From NCBI GenBank assembly GCA_030431255.1, contig JAUIJL010000022.1, positions 1 to 64,000 on the forward strand: a stretch of DNA of 64,000 bases, written 5' to 3'. The translations under genes and the position numbers were made by a program. Below the pieces are notes generated by a model that saw nothing but the letters and a program-made list of their open reading frames with translations, had not been told where the DNA came from and did not search any database. The DNA comes from Thermoanaerobaculia bacterium (lineage in GTDB: Bacteria > Acidobacteriota > Thermoanaerobaculia > Multivoradales > J023). Below, piece by piece: positions 40,669 through 57,977 of this stretch; within the stretch, counting starts at the first letter, position 1; each line of letters starts with the position of its first letter.

Positions 40669-41256
40669 ATGACCGATAGAGCCCTGAACGACGAGCAGAC
40701 GGTTCGTCTCAACGACGAGCAGACGGTTCGTTTAGAGTCTTTGCGCGGGGATTTGGCAGCGTTGCGGTCCAACGCGGACGCCGGTATTCCGATCCCCGAG
40801 ATCTCCGACGAGCTCCTCCGTTGCCTGGTCCGCCAGGGCTCTCCCCATGCCACTCTGCCGAGCCGATTCTTGGCCCGCTGCGGTTTCGAGCTCCACGCTA
40901 CGGATGAGCTGAGCACCGACGAGCAACTTTCTTCCGAGCTGTGGAAGCTGATTTGGATCATGGCCCTGTTGCGTCTCTTTCTCGAGCAGACGGATCACCT
41001 CAGTGATCGTGACCTCTATCGCTTTCTGACGGAAGACGCCTTGCTCCAACCCACGGTCTTCGTGCCCGGGGAGCACAACCCGCCGTTTTACACCATCGAT
41101 CCCTTGGGCGCCGGCAGCTCCGACGACCACCGTCTGCTGCTCACCTACTACGGCGACACCCTCGATCCAGAGCTGAAAAGCGACCTTCAGGCGGAATTCC
41201 CTGAGCCGATCACGCCCAAGCCCAGACCTTTCGACCGCGACCGCTTTCTGCCCTGA
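40669..41256 (+). CDS. Conserved-looking cytoplasmic protein, unknown
   Basis: A 195-residue helical protein without a recognised family. Residues 6-21 (LNDEQTVR) are exactly duplicated. The middle (LWKLIWIMALLRLFLEQT) is a hydrophobic helix and the C-terminal half is Asp/Pro-rich. No signal peptide is seen. It follows the exported protein gene by 6 bp on the same strand, so the two may be co-transcribed, and ends 13 bp before the convergent methyltransferase gene. Confidence 0.68.
   Translation: MTDRALNDEQTVRLNDEQTVRLESLRGDLAALRSNADAGIPIPEISDELLRCLVRQGSPHATLPSRFLARCGFELHATDELSTDEQLSSELWKLIWIMALLRLFLEQTDHLSDRDLYRFLTEDALLQPTVFVPGEHNPPFYTIDPLGAGSSDDHRLLLTYYGDTLDPELKSDLQAEFPEPITPKPRPFDRDRFLP
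40684..40731. repeat. 24-bp tandem duplication at the 5' end of a gene
   Basis: CT(G/C)AACGACGAGCAGACGG and its continuation occur twice head to tail with a single mismatch, encoding LNDEQTVR twice. It looks like a recent slippage duplication. Confidence 0.8.
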
Positions 41257-41269
41257 TCACGGTGCCAGA

Positions 41270-42187
41270 TCACGGCGGAGCCGGAATCGCCGACAAGACG
41301 AGCCGCACCGGCTCCAACGACAAGCTGTTGCCCACCAACCGCCACGCGTTCTTAAGCGGCATGTCCTCTGGTAGGGCAAAGTCGTCCGGGAATCCCAACA
41401 AGGTGAGGATCTCGCGAGGAGAGAACCTTCGGGCGCCGTCCTCCGTGGCGAGCAGTGAGCCACTTCGCACATGGGAACGACCGTAAGCTGAGGTAAAACA
41501 TCGGGTCTGGGCCGCGGGATCTCGACGATCGACTAGATGCAGAGCACCCCGATACTGCCTCAGGACTCGGGGATCCACGGCCAGCTGGAGCCGTTCGGCG
41601 CCGCCCGACGGCTCGGCCGGCCCCGATATCAGCTGGTCCAGGGTTCTCGCAGTCGAGATCGGCCGGCCGGGATCGACCAGCCCATCACGAGCCGCCAGCG
41701 CGTAATAGCGGGGCCGACGATTCGGCACCCCGAAATCGCTGGGGCAGAGAGACCATTCCAAAAACGACGAATAGCCACTTCTTTCCAGAATCTGGAGCAA
41801 GCGGTCACGGGCCTGTGAGGTCTCGAATCCCACCACATTTTCCATGGCGAAATATCGGGGTCGAACCTCGCCCAACTTTTCGAGCAGGGCCAAGAAGGTT
41901 TTGGCGCGGGGATCCTCGAGATCCAAGCGTCGGCCTCGGCGGGTAAAGGGCTGGCAAGGGGGCGAGGCCCACCAGAGATCGGCGGAGAAGGCTTGCAGCT
42001 GGGGAATCGGCAGGGATTCCAAGGACTTGGTCGAAGTGCGGTGCCGAAAATTGAGACGGTAGACGGCCAACGCCAAGGCGTTGATATCCACCGCCGCGAC
42101 CACTTTCCATCGAGAAGAGCCGGCGGTGGCAGCCGCGAAGCCGCCGATGCCGCAATAGAGCTCGAGGGCCCGCAACGGCTCGGTCAT
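41270..42187 (-). CDS. DNMT2-like cytosine-5 methyltransferase, probably tRNA-directed
   Basis: A 305-residue C5-methyltransferase. Motif I is YCGIGGF (11-17), motif IV PPCQPFTRRG with catalytic Cys78, motif VI ENV (116-118), motif VIII RRPRYY and motif X ending LVGNS (284-288). The specific features match the DNMT2/TRDMT1 group: the ENV motif, DPRAKTFLALLEKL, ENVVGFETSQARDRLL and the family-diagnostic CFT motif (CFTSAYGR, 230-237) followed by SGSLL. DNMT2 methylates C38 of tRNA (Asp in eukaryotes, Glu in the known Geobacter homologue). There is no restriction enzyme, Vsr or specificity gene next to it, and its target-recognition region is minimal. The N-terminal extension to 42217 is repeat DNA, so ATG at 42187 is used. 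Confidence 0.88.
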   Translation of the reverse strand: MTEPLRALELYCGIGGFAAATAGSSRWKVVAAVDINALALAVYRLNFRHRTSTKSLESLPIPQLQAFSADLWWASPPCQPFTRRGRRLDLEDPRAKTFLALLEKLGEVRPRYFAMENVVGFETSQARDRLLQILERSGYSSFLEWSLCPSDFGVPNRRPRYYALAARDGLVDPGRPISTARTLDQLISGPAEPSGGAERLQLAVDPRVLRQYRGALHLVDRRDPAAQTRCFTSAYGRSHVRSGSLLATEDGARRFSPREILTLLGFPDDFALPEDMPLKNAWRLVGNSLSLEPVRLVLSAIPAPP

Positions 42188-42198
42188 GGCAATCGGAG

Positions 42199-42264
42199 CA
42201 AGGTCAGGCGGACCCAAGGTCAGGTCAGAGCAAGGTCAGGTCAGAGCCAAGGTCAGGTCAGACC
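42199..42264. repeat. Four tandem 16-17-bp repeats between two genes
   Basis: CAAGGTCAGGTCAGAG(C) occurs four times head to tail with a few mismatches (first copy CAAGGTCAGGCGGACC). It spans the 5' end of the DNMT2-like gene's upstream region and the last codons and stop of the ferredoxin-NADP reductase gene. Confidence 0.85.
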
Positions 42265-43185
42265 CAGGGCCTGGCGCATCTCCGCCTTCATGCGATCACG
42301 GAGCTCGGTGTCGTCGGGGTCGATCACCGGCGTGTTGTCGTATTGCTCGTAGAACAACGACGCCGGGACGTCGTCGGGCACCTCGAGGTCCCGGCGCAGC
42401 TTGCGGTTATCGCCGACGAATCCCCGCGACACCGTGCGCGCGATGGTCTCTCCAATGGTGCCTTGGAGACCGCAGATGAAGATGACGCCACGCTCCGAGG
42501 TCAGCTCGCCCGGACCGAAACCGAGGCGGCTCTCGAGCTCAATGAATCGGTCGGGCAGGAAGTAGTCTTCCACTCGACCTTTGTCCCCCTCCCATTCGGG
42601 GGCGGATTGGGGCCGGCTGATGCTGGCGAAATAATGCAGGCCGTTGCTTTTGCACAGGGCCTCCATCTCTTCTCGATACCCCAGATCCGCCGGATAGGAA
42701 GCACCGTGCAGCACGCAATATGAGCTGAGGTCGACGTCGGGATTACGCAGCATCTCGCTGCGGATCATGCTCACGAACGGTGCCATGCCCGTTCCCGCGG
42801 CCACGAAGATCTTCAATCTCGGATCGCCGTCACCAATGGCTTCGGGAATGGTGAATCGACCCACGGCTTTGGCGCGCATGAACATGCGATCGCCTTCCTT
42901 CGCCTTCCAAATCAGATGGGTCAACGGATTATCCGATTCCGGCCAGTTGACGTACCGGATGTAGAACTCCAGGACATCACCTTCCTCAGGAGCGGACACG
43001 ATGGACATCGGTCGGCGCACTGAGCCGAGCTCCGGCTTCTCCTCATTGTTCATGCCCAGAGTCACGTACTGACCCGGAATGAAGCTTGAAACCGGATCGT
43101 CCGATTTGATTTTGAAGATGGCCAGAGCCGAGGTGAGATCTTCTCGGCCTACCAAGGTCGCGTTGTACTCCAGAGGTTTCGCCAT
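42253..43185 (-). CDS. Ferredoxin--NADP reductase
   Basis: A 310-residue FAD enzyme that shuttles electrons between ferredoxin/flavodoxin and NADP(H). The FAD motif RRPMSIVS (near 58-65), the NADP-binding FVAAGTGMAPF (about 127-137) and the second NADP motif FICGLQGTIGET are present. The final residues (ALGLT) and the TGA come from the tandem repeat downstream. A perfect TATAAT lies 9 nt upstream of the ATG, so the 5' leader is only a few bases. Confidence 0.9.
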   Translation of the reverse strand: MAKPLEYNATLVGREDLTSALAIFKIKSDDPVSSFIPGQYVTLGMNNEEKPELGSVRRPMSIVSAPEEGDVLEFYIRYVNWPESDNPLTHLIWKAKEGDRMFMRAKAVGRFTIPEAIGDGDPRLKIFVAAGTGMAPFVSMIRSEMLRNPDVDLSSYCVLHGASYPADLGYREEMEALCKSNGLHYFASISRPQSAPEWEGDKGRVEDYFLPDRFIELESRLGFGPGELTSERGVIFICGLQGTIGETIARTVSRGFVGDNRKLRRDLEVPDDVPASLFYEQYDNTPVIDPDDTELRDRMKAEMRQALGLT

Positions 43186-43268: not shown

Positions 43269-44036
43269 TTGAGGAACCAAAACTTGACCAACCTATCTGC
43301 CTCCGACGACCGTCTGTCCGTGCTCAGGCAGGTAGACCTATTCTCCGACCTCGGCGAGCAGGAGCTGCAGAAGCTTCAATCCCACTTCGTCGAGCAATCC
43401 GTACCCAGCCACACCAGCATCTACCACCACGGTGACCCCTCGGACAGCTTCTACGTGATCCGATCCGGATCCGTGGCGGTCTATCGCGACGAGGTCGGCA
43501 AACCCGTGCAGCTGCAGGCCCGTTTCGGCCCCGGCGATTTCTTTGGAGAAACCGGCCTCTTCGACGGTTTTCAACGCTCCGCTTCCGCGCGCGCCAGCGA
43601 GCCGTGCCGCTTGCTGACGATTCACAAAGATCGATTGCTGGCTTTCCTCGATCACCACCCCGAGGTCTTGATCAAGCTGCAGATCGCCGCGGCTCGCCGC
43701 CACACCCTCAACGTCGCCGCGGCCCTGGACCTGGGCATCCGCAACGAGGTGAGGATTCGCCTGGACCGAGTGGTCACCTTGGAGACCTCGCTCGGGCAGA
43801 GCTTGACCGTGCGGCTCGAAAATCTCAGCCTGGGCGGTATGTGCTTGCGCGGAGTGCCTCCATCTTGGACCAAGGGGCGGGAGCTGAGCTTTGAGCTGAG
43901 CTACGGCGAAGAGAGCCTGGCAGTGCGCGGAACGATCAGCTGGCGGGAGCCCGAAACCGCGGGTTTGGCCTTCGCCGAGACCGGCCCCGAGCACGACGCC
44001 GACGTCCAAAACATGCTGCGTCGGCTGTTGGCTTAA
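43269..44036 (+). CDS. Cyclic-nucleotide-binding-like domain fused to PilZ
   Basis: A 255-residue cytoplasmic protein. The N-terminal cNMP-binding-fold region (about 10-130) has GDPSDSFYVIRSGSVAVYRDE and GDFFGETGLFDGFQRSASARA. The C-terminal PilZ-like region has NEVRIRLDR and LENLSLGGMCLRG. PilZ domains bind c-di-GMP. There is no HTH, so it acts as an effector protein rather than a transcription factor. GGAGAAC or GAGGAACC precedes the candidate TTG starts at 43269 and 43284. Confidence 0.82.
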   Translation: MRNQNLTNLSASDDRLSVLRQVDLFSDLGEQELQKLQSHFVEQSVPSHTSIYHHGDPSDSFYVIRSGSVAVYRDEVGKPVQLQARFGPGDFFGETGLFDGFQRSASARASEPCRLLTIHKDRLLAFLDHHPEVLIKLQIAAARRHTLNVAAALDLGIRNEVRIRLDRVVTLETSLGQSLTVRLENLSLGGMCLRGVPPSWTKGRELSFELSYGEESLAVRGTISWREPETAGLAFAETGPEHDADVQNMLRRLLA

Positions 44037-47679: not shown

Positions 47680-48210
47680 ATGAAGCTCAAGCTGCCGCCC
47701 TTGGTTTCGATGCTCCTGGTTTCGATGCTCCTATGGGTCGCTTGTGATCGACCCCTTTGGTACGTCGAGGTGACCAAGGACACCCTGCACGAAAAGATGT
47801 CCCTCTACCCCAATGATGAAGCCGTCTCCTGGTGGTATACCGGAGACGACGGCACCTTTCGGTATTTCGTGATGAAAAAGGAGGGGACTTGGCCGGACGA
47901 CGGTTATAAGGTGCCCGAAGAGACCCTCGACTTTATCCGGGATAAAGAGTTCGATATTGAGCACGGCAGCGGCAGGGATCGGTGGAAACGGGTCAGCCGA
48001 AAAGATTTCACCGTCAAAGGCTCGTTGTTGCAGCAGACCATCGCCATCCCCAACAAGGTCAGAGGCCGGCTCGAAGGGCTGACCCAGGATGGGTCGGACT
48101 CGAGCGAGGACGACTCGAGCGAAGACGACTTCGAGGACGACTACGAAGACGACTCGGAGGACGACTACGAAGACGACTCGGAAGACGATTCGGAGGACGA
48201 CTATGAGTGA
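47680..48210 (+). CDS. Putative lipoprotein with acidic repetitive C-terminus
   Basis: A 176-residue exported protein. The leader ends LWVAC, a lipobox with Trp instead of Leu at -3, so Cys22 is a possible lipidation site. The middle (30-130) is a small mixed domain without family match. The last 40 residues are SEDD/YEDD repeats encoded by imperfect DNA repeats (48105-48205). GTGGAGAACGAC before ATG gives a normal ribosome-binding site. Its 3' end overlaps the start of the sigma factor gene by 8 bp, so the two proteins are co-translated. Confidence 0.72.
   Translation: MKLKLPPLVSMLLVSMLLWVACDRPLWYVEVTKDTLHEKMSLYPNDEAVSWWYTGDDGTFRYFVMKKEGTWPDDGYKVPEETLDFIRDKEFDIEHGSGRDRWKRVSRKDFTVKGSLLQQTIAIPNKVRGRLEGLTQDGSDSSEDDSSEDDFEDDYEDDSEDDYEDDSEDDSEDDYE
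47702..47731. repeat. Perfect 15-bp tandem duplication in a signal peptide
   Basis: TGGTTTCGATGCTCC occurs twice head to tail, encoding VSMLL twice in the hydrophobic core of the lipoprotein leader. Confidence 0.85.
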
Positions 48211-53476: not shown

Positions 53477-54139
53477 CTAACTCTGGCCCGGACTTTTTTC
53501 CAACACCCAGGTGGTCATACAGCGTAACCCTTGCACCTGGGTGGTCTTGATCGGGTCCAATAGCCGGCCGGACAGTCGCCGGGTTTCCAAAAACAACTGC
53601 TCCAGGGTCACCAAATATCGTTCGGCGCCGTCAGGCTGCACAAAACGTCCGCCGCCCTTGGCCACCACCTCCCGTTCTAAGCCGATATTCGACGCCAAAC
53701 GCACGAATAACAAGCCTCCCGGGACGAGCAGCCGCCAAGCTCCGTCGAGCTGAGCCCGGAAGCTCTCGTGGTCCTCGGCAAAATGCAGCACCGCATTGCA
53801 GATCACCGCGTCCGCGCAGGCTTCCTCGAACGGCGCCTGCTCCAAGGAACCGATCCGAAACGCGTCGGCGGGCAAGTGGGGAGCCAATCGGGAGGCCATC
53901 CCCTGCACGGCCGCAATCGCCTCCGGATTCGGATCGAAACCCATCACCGCGTATCCGGCGCCCATGAAGTAGACCAAATTGCGACCGCCACCACAGCCGG
54001 CATCGAGAATTTTCGAGCCCGGCGGCAGCCGCCCCTTCTGCAGCTGATCGAAGAGGTAGATGTCGATATTTCCCAAGAGCTCCAGCAAAAGACCGGGCTC
54101 CAAGCCGCTCAAACGATCAGGCCCCATGGAGCTCGTCAA
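53477..54139 (-). CDS. Class I SAM-dependent methyltransferase
   Basis: A 220-residue methyltransferase. Motif I is ILDAGCGGGRN (44-54), motif II FDPNP, and motif IV ICNAVLHFAEDHESF. The C-terminal block ends MTTWVLEKSPG. The substrate is unknown. ATG at 54139 overlaps the stop of the HerA-like gene by 4 bp, so the two are coupled. Confidence 0.9.
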   Translation of the reverse strand: MTSSMGPDRLSGLEPGLLLELLGNIDIYLFDQLQKGRLPPGSKILDAGCGGGRNLVYFMGAGYAVMGFDPNPEAIAAVQGMASRLAPHLPADAFRIGSLEQAPFEEACADAVICNAVLHFAEDHESFRAQLDGAWRLLVPGGLLFVRLASNIGLEREVVAKGGGRFVQPDGAERYLVTLEQLFLETRRLSGRLLDPIKTTQVQGLRCMTTWVLEKSPGQS

Positions 54140-56580
54140 TCCTCGACGGGTTGCCAGGCGAGGGCGACCAGGCGCACGTCCACGTCCGTCCGCCGCGGTT
54201 TCAGCTCGAAGGTCTCCAGCTCCTCGAGCTGGGGATCGAATCGGGTTTCAAGATCCGCGACCTCGTTCTGTAGCTCTTGCTCCAGGTCGGCAAATTGCTC
54301 TTGCAAAAGCTCCAAGCTCTCCTCGGCGCGGTCCACGTCCTGCCCCTCTTTCATGGTCCGGCTGAAGCTTCGGGCCGTGGTCGAGGCTCGACGCATGGAT
54401 TTGCGACCGAAAAAAGCCCCGAGAAGGGTGGTGCCCACATTGACCACCGCCTGAAGCTTCTGGTCTCTGCTCTGCTGACGCTCCTTTTCCACCTTCTGCT
54501 CGGCCCGCAACAGGCGACCGCGCAGGGTATCGAAGCGGCGGTCGTATTTCTTGCGGACTTTTTCCACCTCGAGGTCACGCTGCTCACGGGCGACGTCCGC
54601 CAAACGGATCCGAAACGCCCGCTCACTTTCCCCCGGCTCGGCGATCAGATCGAAGGTCGGGCTGCGGAGCAGCGGCCATCGACGCTCACGGTAGAGCATG
54701 TCCGCGAAGGATTTGGTGTAGGACTTGAACGCTTTCTCACCGGCCGCTTCCGAGGGCAGCTCGCCGAAAGTGGCCTGTGGCGCCGGCTTCCGCTCGAGGT
54801 CGTCCTCCTCGAGCTCCAGAAGCTCCGCTCGCGACCAATCCACGTCTCCGTCTCGGTCCAGCTCGGCCAAAAACAGCACTTCCTCCTCCGCTTCCAGGCC
54901 TTTTCGGCCGTCGACGAAATGCACTCTGGCTTCACCGATCAAGGCGGGCTCGTAGCGCACTCCGTCTCCGCCTCGATCGTTCACGGGCAAGAAGCGCTGG
55001 TCGATCTCCGCCGGCAGCATCGGACGGTCGCCGCCGCCGGTGGTCGAGCCCGAAGCTTTTCGCCGCGGGCCGGCCTTGATGCCGGTGCGCTTCGTGGAAT
55101 CACCTTCCGATGAGCCGGCGTGTTCTGCGGAGTCGGCCGCCGCCGCGGAAGCTTCCCGACGGTCGGCCATCAAGGTCTTGATCTGGCTGCGGGTCAGCGG
55201 GCCGCGCAAATAAGACAGAGCCCAGCGGACCCGGAACAGCACCGGGGCGTTTTCGTGCACGTTGTGCAATAGGAAGACCCGTTTATCCAAACCCGAGATC
55301 AAATGCTCGAGCTGTCGCTTGCTCAGGCCGGCCTCGGTGGAAAGCAGGCCGTCCATGACCCGTTCCTTGTCCCGCTCGGTTTGCAATCTGCCCAGAAGCC
55401 AGGTGCCGATATTCGACAGCGCCTTGTAGTCCAGATCCACCGGATTTTGGGTGGCGAGCACGAGGCCGACGCCGAAGGCCCGGGCCTGTTTGAGCAAGGT
55501 CAGCATGGGCGTCTTCGAGGGAGGATTGCCGATCGGTGGCAGGTAGCCGAAGACCTCGTCCATATAAACGATGGCCCGCAGGCTGGAGGTGCCGGCTTGG
55601 GTCCGCATCCAGCTCAAGACCTGATTCATCAGCATGGAGACGAAGAACATCCGCTCCGCATCCGACAAATGGGCGATCGATACCACGCTGACCCGAGGCT
55701 TGCCCCGAGGGTCGTAGAGCAAGTTGTCCACATCCAAAGGCTCACCGCTCATCCAGCTCTGGAAAGTCGGCGACGCCAGGAGATTGTTCAAGCTCATGGC
55801 CAGCTCGAACCGATCTTTCGACGGATAGAAGGAGTCCAGGGGAAAGACCCCGACTTTGTCGAATGGCGGATCCTGGATGCCCATGATCAGGCCGGCCAAG
55901 TCCAGGTCCCGCCCCTCCGACCAAGCGTGATGGAGCACGTTGGAGAGCAGAATGGCCTCGCGGCTTTGAATCGGGTCGGCGTCGATGCCCAGCAGCGACA
56001 ACAGGCTGACCGCGGTGGAGGCGATCCTCTGCTGCAAGAGGTCCGAATCTTCCAAGATCTCGGCCGGTGGCGCGCTGAAGGAGGACAGGATCGAAATCGG
56101 CAGACCGGCCTCGCTGCCCGGCGTGTAAATGGCCAGGTCCACGGTCTCGCGCAACCGGCCGATGCGGCTTCCGTCCTGATCCCACTTGGCCAAACCGGAT
56201 CGCCACAGCTCGGCTTGGGAGTCGGCGAAGTCCTCGACCGTCTGGCCCGCTCGGCTCGCTTGACCGGGATCCACCCAAGGTTTGAAGTCTTGCCCGCTGA
56301 GCTCGGGGAAGGTGAGCAGCAAATTGCCCAGGTCACCCTTGACGTCGATCGCGATGGCCGGAACGCCGTCGATCGCGGCTTCTTCCAACAAGCTCAAGCA
56401 CAAACCGGTCTTTCCACTACCGGTCATGCCCACGCACACCGCATGGGTGGTCAAGTCTTTGGAATCGTAGAGCAGAGGCGCGCTCTGCACCTCGCCGTCG
56501 GCGGGGTCGACCTCACGACCCAGATAGAAGGCACCGAGCTTTTCGTAGGCATCGACTTTCGAGCTCACGGGATCCTCCAT
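54136..56580 (-). CDS. HerA-like ATPase with C-terminal coiled coil
   Basis: An 814-residue P-loop protein of the HerA/FtsK superfamily. Walker A is GMTGSGKT (51-58), the Walker B DE lies in VYMDEVFGYLP near 340, and NPVDLDYKALSNIGTWLLGRLQTERD resembles the sensor region. The last 200 residues form a coiled coil (DLEVEKVRKKYDRRFDTLRGRLLRAEQKVEKE, LQEQFADLEQELQ). HerA proteins are hexameric DNA translocases; this variant lacks a NurA nuclease neighbour. ATG at 56580 (MEDPVSSK) is chosen; the upstream frame has no support. Coupled to a methyltransferase gene, it could belong to a DNA-modification or cell-envelope process, which is unproved. Confidence 0.88.
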   Translation of the reverse strand: MEDPVSSKVDAYEKLGAFYLGREVDPADGEVQSAPLLYDSKDLTTHAVCVGMTGSGKTGLCLSLLEEAAIDGVPAIAIDVKGDLGNLLLTFPELSGQDFKPWVDPGQASRAGQTVEDFADSQAELWRSGLAKWDQDGSRIGRLRETVDLAIYTPGSEAGLPISILSSFSAPPAEILEDSDLLQQRIASTAVSLLSLLGIDADPIQSREAILLSNVLHHAWSEGRDLDLAGLIMGIQDPPFDKVGVFPLDSFYPSKDRFELAMSLNNLLASPTFQSWMSGEPLDVDNLLYDPRGKPRVSVVSIAHLSDAERMFFVSMLMNQVLSWMRTQAGTSSLRAIVYMDEVFGYLPPIGNPPSKTPMLTLLKQARAFGVGLVLATQNPVDLDYKALSNIGTWLLGRLQTERDKERVMDGLLSTEAGLSKRQLEHLISGLDKRVFLLHNVHENAPVLFRVRWALSYLRGPLTRSQIKTLMADRREASAAAADSAEHAGSSEGDSTKRTGIKAGPRRKASGSTTGGGDRPMLPAEIDQRFLPVNDRGGDGVRYEPALIGEARVHFVDGRKGLEAEEEVLFLAELDRDGDVDWSRAELLELEEDDLERKPAPQATFGELPSEAAGEKAFKSYTKSFADMLYRERRWPLLRSPTFDLIAEPGESERAFRIRLADVAREQRDLEVEKVRKKYDRRFDTLRGRLLRAEQKVEKERQQSRDQKLQAVVNVGTTLLGAFFGRKSMRRASTTARSFSRTMKEGQDVDRAEESLELLQEQFADLEQELQNEVADLETRFDPQLEELETFELKPRRTDVDVRLVALAWQPVED

Positions 56581-56940
56581 GAAAGGCGGTTCTCGAGGGG
56601 GACAAGAAAGCGGAATCTTAACCCGGTTTCTCCATCTTCCTGTTGTCGCGAGCGCCTGAGGTCCAGCGATCGCCTTGAGCGCCTCCCAGCCGGCACACAT
56701 CATGCTTATACATATTGATATGACAGCAAGTGGCGGAATCGGCTGCCAAAATGGCCGTCCTGGACTCCAACCGATCGGGAAATTTCGCCTTGCCGGTAAA
56801 ACCGCCCTGTTTTCCCCATCGGTCGGAGGATAGAATTACACCGCCCTTAACACCAAGTAGCTTCAAAAAACCGGTTGGTCGCGCCGTGAGCACGCTTCTT
56901 CAAAGCTCCGACGGCGGGCTACCACAGGAGGATTCTGAAC
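56581..56940. other. Divergent promoter region, AT-rich patch with inverted repeat
   Basis: Around 56704-56724 lies the most AT-rich patch, with the inverted repeat CATATTGATATG (56711-56722), a candidate operator. TAGAAT at 56831 with a poor -35 may serve the LysM gene. Nothing else is seen. Confidence 0.4.
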
Positions 56941-57636: not shown

Positions 57637-57710
<74 letters not shown>

Positions 57711-57762
57711 TATAGACGCCCGACGCGCGACACCAAGATCCATCGAGGCGATCCGTTTTCGG

Positions 57763-57836
57763 CTGCCTGTAGCTCAGTTGGATAGAGCGGCGGCCTTCTA
57801 AGCCGCGGGTCGGGGGTTCGAATCCCTCCAGGCAGG
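57763..57836 (+). tRNA. tRNA-Arg(TCT)
   Basis: Acceptor CTGCCTG / CAGGCAG, anticodon stem GCGGC / GCCGC with loop CTTCTAA (anticodon TCT) and T-arm GGGGG-TTCGAAT-CCCTC with one G-U pair. The terminal CCA is not encoded. Confidence 0.97.
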
Positions 57837-57900
57837 CCAACCTGGGGCAGATCCACTGCCGTCGGACGTCCACAGATCGGTGTCATGGCACAAACTCGAT

Positions 57901-57977
57901 GCGCCCGTAGCTCAGCTGGATAGAGCGACGGCCTCCGGAGCCGTAGGTCAGGGGTTCGAATCCCTTCGGGCGCACCA
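57901..57977 (+). tRNA. tRNA-Arg(CCG)
   Basis: Acceptor GCGCCCG / CGGGCGC, anticodon stem ACGGC / GCCGT with loop CTCCGGA (anticodon CCG) and T-arm GGGGTTCGAATCCC. The 3' CCA (57975-57977) is encoded, unlike in the two upstream tRNAs. Confidence 0.97.

Follow-up and report, generated by a model that had tools for sequence, protein, structure and literature searches.

A chromosomal DNMT2-family cytosine methyltransferase in an Acidobacteriota genome, its bacterial relatives and its candidate tRNA substrates

The gene at positions 41270-42187 (minus strand) is real and intact and encodes a genuine member of the DNMT2 family of C5-cytosine methyltransferases, a protein of 305 aa referred to here as P0001. 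It lies within a window of 64,000 nucleotides, the whole stretch of DNA that was analysed, and belongs to a host genome (G000) of 10.2 Mb that is 98.8% complete. P0001 is probably a chromosomal, vertically kept bacterial DNMT2 of the TRDMT1 type, whose most likely activity would be the formation of m5C38 in tRNA, with tRNA-Asp(GUC) as the best candidate substrate.

Gene structure and sequence motifs

The reading frame begins with an ATG at 42187, and an in-frame TTG is present 30 bases upstream of it. Inspection of the sequence and of its alignment columns places motif IV (SPPCQPFTRR) at residues 75-84 (41936-41965, minus strand), bearing the catalytic Cys78 and a DNMT2-type proline at residue 80, and motif VI (ENV) at residues 116-118 (41834-41842, minus strand). 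The DNMT2-type motif CFTSAYGRS, adopted as a family criterion from PMC3227630, spans residues 230-238 (41474-41500, minus strand). The motifs quoted in the initial annotation, namely ENV, the DPRAKTFLALLEKL block (residues 92-105), CFTSAYGR (residues 230-237) and SGSLL (residues 242-246), are thus all present in this reading frame.

Not all of these motifs are equally informative. The catalytic residues are common to all of the aligned groups, DNMT2 and DNA enzymes alike, and M.HhaI and the other DNA C5-methyltransferases share with P0001 the fold and the catalytic Cys, Glu and Arg. The initial annotation had treated the whole set as DNMT2 hallmarks, and this stood for the F and T of the CFT motif, found in 52 and 54 of the 54 local-type DNMT2 rows and in only 1 and 3 of the 18 DNA enzymes, respectively. 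It did not stand for the Glu of ENV, present in 18 of 18 DNA enzymes, or the Arg of the DPR block, present in 16 of the 18, neither of which is specific for DNMT2. The C of CFT is retained in 45 of the 54 local-type rows and replaced by T in 8. A further distinction is provided by the proline two residues after the catalytic Cys, which is invariant in the bacterial (54/54 local-type and 11/11 sister-type rows) and eukaryotic (4/4) DNMT2s and is lacking, as is the CF(T) motif, from most of the DNA enzymes (proline in 3/18).

The sister group is typified by the DNMT2s of a family (f38) termed here Holophaga-type, a name that is a guess. These proteins fall in the same clade as P0001 relative to the DNA enzymes and bear the same catalytic residues and proline, but differ in carrying CFI in place of CFT in all 11 aligned rows; the CFT motif is broken as well in the DNMT2 of Dictyostelium (PMC12405889). 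They also differ in the residues that follow the catalytic Cys, where a second cysteine stands four residues past the catalytic one (L029, L030 and L045-L069) in the form of PFCR in 26 of the 27 loci and PTCR in the remaining one (L066).

Family assignment

Phylogeny, sequence and predicted fold all assign P0001 to the DNMT2 family, and the identity first proposed from motifs is thereby borne out. General profile libraries place the protein broadly, with Pfam returning the single family PF00145 (118.6 bits; cut-off 22) and NCBIfam the broad dcm superfamily alone, barely over its cut-off (102.4 bits against 100.65). A search of PDB chains ranks human DNMT2 first (167 and 166 bits), followed by the Spodoptera (140), S. 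pombe (130) and Entamoeba (90.7) enzymes, and M.HhaI appears only after five distinct DNMT2 chains, at no more than 57.6 bits. A profile built from 11 bacterial homologues leaves this order unchanged, with DNMT2 chains at 247 to 187 bits and the next at 121. Among the fetched loci, the DNMT2 types score at least 251 bits and all others at most 102.

The AlphaFold model of P0001, computed from an alignment of 60 rows, has a pLDDT of 96.4. Foldseek places DNMT2 chains at ranks 1-9 and M.HhaI next, and in structural alignment by VIA-align DNMT2 entries reach Z scores of 35.1, 32.9, 32.7, 32.2 and 31.1, only slightly ahead of M.HhaI at 30.6. Over the aligned fold P0001 is 30-36% identical to human DNMT2/TRDMT1 (PDB 1g55 and 9hgm). 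Human C79, E119, R160 and R162 correspond in the alignment to C78, E116, R158 and R160 of P0001, and P81, the CFT motif, R84, R95, K367 and R371 are likewise matched, whereas K122, R275, R289 and K295 are missing and the stretch between motif VIII and CFT is shorter.

Phylogeny, which the initial annotation had named as one check on its proposal, groups P0001 with the eukaryotic DNMT2s and away from the DNA enzymes, M.HhaI included. In the first tree (87 rows), 54 local-type, 11 sister-type and four eukaryotic DNMT2s are split from 18 DNA enzymes with support of 100/99. The DNA side of this tree is comprised of 17 of the 46 available DNA-type loci together with M.HhaI, while three fragments of less than 260 aa, duplicates and 16 of the 27 Holophaga-type loci are omitted from its DNMT2 side. 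The second tree (81 rows), which omits ten near-copies and two long-branched loci (L033 and L083), splits 47, 8 and 4 DNMT2-type rows from 22 DNA enzymes at 100/100. It includes six added plasmid or phage DNA enzymes, two of which have an annotated restriction gene as neighbour: L195 is an annotated HindV methylase next to its restriction gene, and L190 adjoins an annotated restriction endonuclease. Grouping of P0001 with restriction-linked enzymes, these two included, was not found in this tree. Neither bootstrap had converged completely, the four eukaryotic sequences in both were taken from PDB alignments, and the Geobacter protein is in neither.

These results bear directly on the proposal that P0001 is an orphan DNA C5-cytosine methyltransferase which merely resembles DNMT2 and sets a mark for gene regulation or anti-restriction. 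The catalytic motifs are identical in kind, the modelled fold also fits M.HhaI, the NCBIfam dcm model matches, and 53 PADLOC models match P0001, the best being those of type II methyltransferases at 113 bits along almost its full length. Furthermore, the DNMT2 family is thought to have descended from DNA enzymes (PMC3227630), and the abstract of PMC5456315 names bacterial DNMT2 a DNA methyltransferase, whereas its text gives tRNA-Glu as the Geobacter substrate. Against such an identity stand the separation of P0001 from both sets of 18 and 22 DNA enzymes at or near full support, and the genome itself, which apart from P0001 holds two further full-length C5 enzymes (L001 and L002), which the tree puts with the DNA enzymes, as well as a partial match at another place. 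The absence of a restriction, Vsr or specificity gene nearby, already remarked on in the initial annotation, holds for the 18 neighbours scanned (8 with Pfam and PADLOC, and 10 more with Pfam, the latter lying between 28.5 and 56.7 kb; together these make up part of the open reading frames of the window). Searches of plasmid, phage and viral collections likewise turned up no close copy. The plasmid collection gave no match at 1e-25, the 15 best rows listed from each of the plasmid and phage collections are 25-28% identical, and 36 viral loci are 23-33% identical at no more than 102 bits, in the range of the DNA enzymes. An orphan DNA enzyme is accordingly regarded as unlikely, albeit the most serious of the alternatives. 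Since P0001 is itself matched by the dcm model, some proteins recorded as bacterial DNA methyltransferases may in fact be tRNA methyltransferases.

Candidate tRNA substrates

By virtue of its family, tRNA rather than DNA is a reasonable substrate to propose for P0001. Seven characterized DNMT2 members, the Geobacter enzyme among them, are reported to methylate tRNA, and the reported site of action is C38 (PMC5372726). By analogy with the family, P0001 would flip cytosine 38 out of the tRNA anticodon loop, Cys78 would attack C6 of this base with the help of Glu116, and a methyl group from S-adenosylmethionine would be passed to C5 to yield m5C38.

Human DNMT2 reads an anticodon loop of the form C32-U-N-N-C-A-C38 (PMC9976931). 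The host genome gives 45 tRNA matches with Rfam; the 44 distinct gene sequences that were read include four with C38 and three with the full loop, namely those for Asp(GUC), Glu(CUC) and Val(UAC). Because the host tRNA-Glu(UUC) has A38, tRNA-Asp would be the most likely target, with tRNA-Glu(CUC) and tRNA-Val(UAC) as lesser candidates. A known bacterial counterpart for comparison, Dnmt2 of Geobacter sulfurreducens (GSU0227), is a tRNA-Glu methylase (PMC5456315; the cytosine 28 printed there for its target is taken here for a slip). Of the two host versions of that target, tRNA-Glu(UUC) has A38 and tRNA-Glu(CUC) has C38. With A38 in tRNA-Glu(UUC) of the host and of 45 of the 46 genomes read, the substrate of P0001 is presumably not simply that of the Geobacter enzyme.

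The tRNAs of relatives give no signal of covariation between C38 and presence of the DNMT2 gene, be it in tRNA-Asp, tRNA-Glu(UUC) or tRNA-Glu(CUC). The tRNA-Asp loop, read in the 30 best loci from the 59 genomes searched, is CTGTCAC in 10 of 10 genomes with the gene and 20 of 20 without, and this constancy offers no covariation to favour a tRNA substrate. Similarly, tRNA-Glu(UUC) has A38 in 17 of 18 genomes with the gene (the exception, G027, has C38) and 28 of 28 without, and tRNA-Glu(CUC) has C38 in 17 of 17 and 4 of 4, respectively.

Eight basic residues of human DNMT2 matter for its activity on tRNA (PMC12405889), and of these tRNA-cleft residues P0001 retains the equivalents of four (R84, R95, K367 and R371). 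The Geobacter enzyme also lacks four, K122, R289 and K295 as in P0001 and, in addition, R371, yet methylates tRNA-Glu (PMC5456315); the losses in P0001 are therefore no strong evidence against tRNA.

They do, nonetheless, lend some weight to a different possibility, in which P0001 has the DNMT2 fold but acts mainly on an RNA site other than C38 of the three candidate tRNAs, such as another tRNA position, rRNA or another RNA altogether. Half of the human cleft residues are gone, substrate choice has demonstrably shifted in bacteria in the case of Geobacter (PMC5456315), and C38 does not covary with the gene. Three host tRNAs with the full human loop signature and the record of C38 as the DNMT2 site speak against it, and it is deemed improbable, somewhat more so than a DNA substrate.

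With C38 of tRNA-Asp as the preferred target, a role may be sought in aminoacylation, as C38 is an AspRS identity element in bacterial tRNA-Asp (PMC4860778; PMC9976931), and the modification would likely serve to adjust finely how tRNA-Asp is charged or decodes, in concert with queuosine at position 34. The Dnmt2 of S. pombe is stimulated by queuosine (PMC5995894). The host encodes tgt (453 bits, over cut-off) and probably a GluQ-RS-like gene (259 bits, under the cut-off of 276.7), so that this loop may also be modified with queuosine or glutamyl-queuosine. As tgt is over cut-off in 55 of the 59 genomes, it does not discriminate between DNMT2 carriers and others. The GluQ-RS-like gene is found in 20 of the 59 genomes by our own split at 232 bits or more, with lower matches taken as GltX (9 of the 59 pass 276.7). 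DNMT2 is found in 23 and both genes in 11, with no association apparent by eye.

Distribution in bacteria

The initial annotation held bacterial homologues to be rare and named Geobacter as the known case, and this view is not sustained by the genomes searched, in several groups of which DNMT2 is common and far more widely spread than Geobacter. With P0001 as query, homologues of at least 172 bits occur in 23 of 59 genomes (its own and 58 relatives). Those of the 22 positive relatives are full-length and 40-58% identical, and the remaining matches, split pieces of the same genes aside, score no more than 62 bits. A family profile applied at 1e-30 finds members in 34 of 347 genomes of the host phylum, 28 of these in family f38, in 45 of 329 genomes of the phylum of a Proteobacteria-titled record and in 4 of 343 of the phylum of a Planctomycetales record. 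These are rough counts, as at most seven candidates were scored per genome and some positives are fragments. Motif inspection in these searches covered the positives for which a locus was taken, 30 of the 34 in the host phylum (one more had been fetched earlier) and 30 of the 45 genomes, and for the count within f38 two loci. Within f38 itself, DNMT2 is present in 64 of 77 genomes (41 of the 48 good genomes), and three genera (g142, g114 and g193) are wholly negative. In the order of the host, two relatives (L029 and L030, of f9) carry a Holophaga-type DNMT2 in place of the local type, which suggests either transfer or ancient paralogy.

This broad and intact bacterial family provides many new enzymes with which to test why DNMT2 exists, as well as material on the substrate shift between tRNA-Asp and tRNA-Glu and on m5C38 and queuosine outside of eukaryotes.

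Origin of bacterial and eukaryotic DNMT2

In 2011 Geobacter was the only bacterial source of Dnmt2 on record, and the gene was suggested to have reached it from eukaryotes (PMC3227630). In the literature consulted, Geobacter is also the one bacterial case described with demonstrated action on tRNA. A literature search on Dnmt2 in Acidobacteria found no report. The 2011 proposal speaks for P0001 as an odd and recent arrival from a eukaryotic donor, considered here along with the notion that its gene is no longer active. Both are very improbable. The frame and catalytic residues are intact, homologues of 40-58% identity are present among the relatives, the gene upstream is unchanged in most of the DNMT2 loci of the host family, and the eukaryotic rows are not beside P0001 in either tree.

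The eukaryotic rows instead adjoin the Holophaga-type group in the point estimates of both trees, at 97/81 in the first and, with weak support, within bacterial diversity in the second. The trees thus suggest a bacterial origin of eukaryotic DNMT2, although not significantly, as AU tests leave two alternatives standing: a clade made up of every bacterial row (p 0.359) and one that joins the 54 local-type rows to the eukaryotes (p 0.477). Given the breadth of bacterial DNMT2, a bacterial origin may be the simpler reading. More speculatively, DNMT2 could be an ancient bacterial family of tRNA modifiers that is widespread among Acidobacteriota and occurs in other phyla too, with eukaryotes having acquired theirs from bacteria near the Holophaga-type branch. 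In the present host lineage the enzyme would then methylate C38 of a tRNA-Asp that should also bear queuosine and, should the GluQ-RS-like gene be present, glutamyl-queuosine at position 34. This wider scenario is put forward tentatively, as a possibility that falls short of the probable. Transfer from bacteria to eukaryotes, if true, would reverse the published direction.

Genomic neighbourhood

Upstream of the DNMT2 gene, 65 bp before its ATG and on the same strand, lies a gene for a ferredoxin/flavin-type NAD(P)H oxidoreductase (42253-43185, minus strand), which is given as context only. Five of the seven DNMT2 loci in the host family have it at this place, as expected for vertical descent. 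More generally, with flanks of mostly 1.5 kb, neighbours are common to close relatives only and none is joint to different groups. A 16-bp tandem repeat (CAAGGTCAGGTCAGACC; 42196-42266), present in about four copies and again given as context, fills the gap from the end of the oxidoreductase gene to the start codon of the DNMT2 gene; a 15-base core of it was found nowhere else in the window with one mismatch allowed.

On the other side, a 195-aa open reading frame (40669-41256, plus strand) converges with the DNMT2 gene at a distance of 13 bp; it contains a duplicated NDEQTVRL and has no match in Pfam, NCBIfam or PADLOC. A cyclic-nucleotide-binding and PilZ protein (43269-44036, plus strand) gives weak PADLOC matches to Pycsar (best 27.6 bits), which probably reflect the shared cyclic-nucleotide domain. 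Farther away is a cluster of three tRNA genes (57637-57977, plus strand) for Pro(UGG), Arg(UCU) and Arg(CCG), none with C38. A large protein encoded at 54136-56703 (minus strand) has a weak match to HerA helicase, and proteins of this type occur in some defence systems. Lastly, a small protein without a Pfam match (47680-48210, plus strand) bears a long, repetitive Asp/Glu-rich tail; in view of the effect of mouse DNMT2 on poly-Asp proteins (PMC4860778), it might be of use as a reporter.
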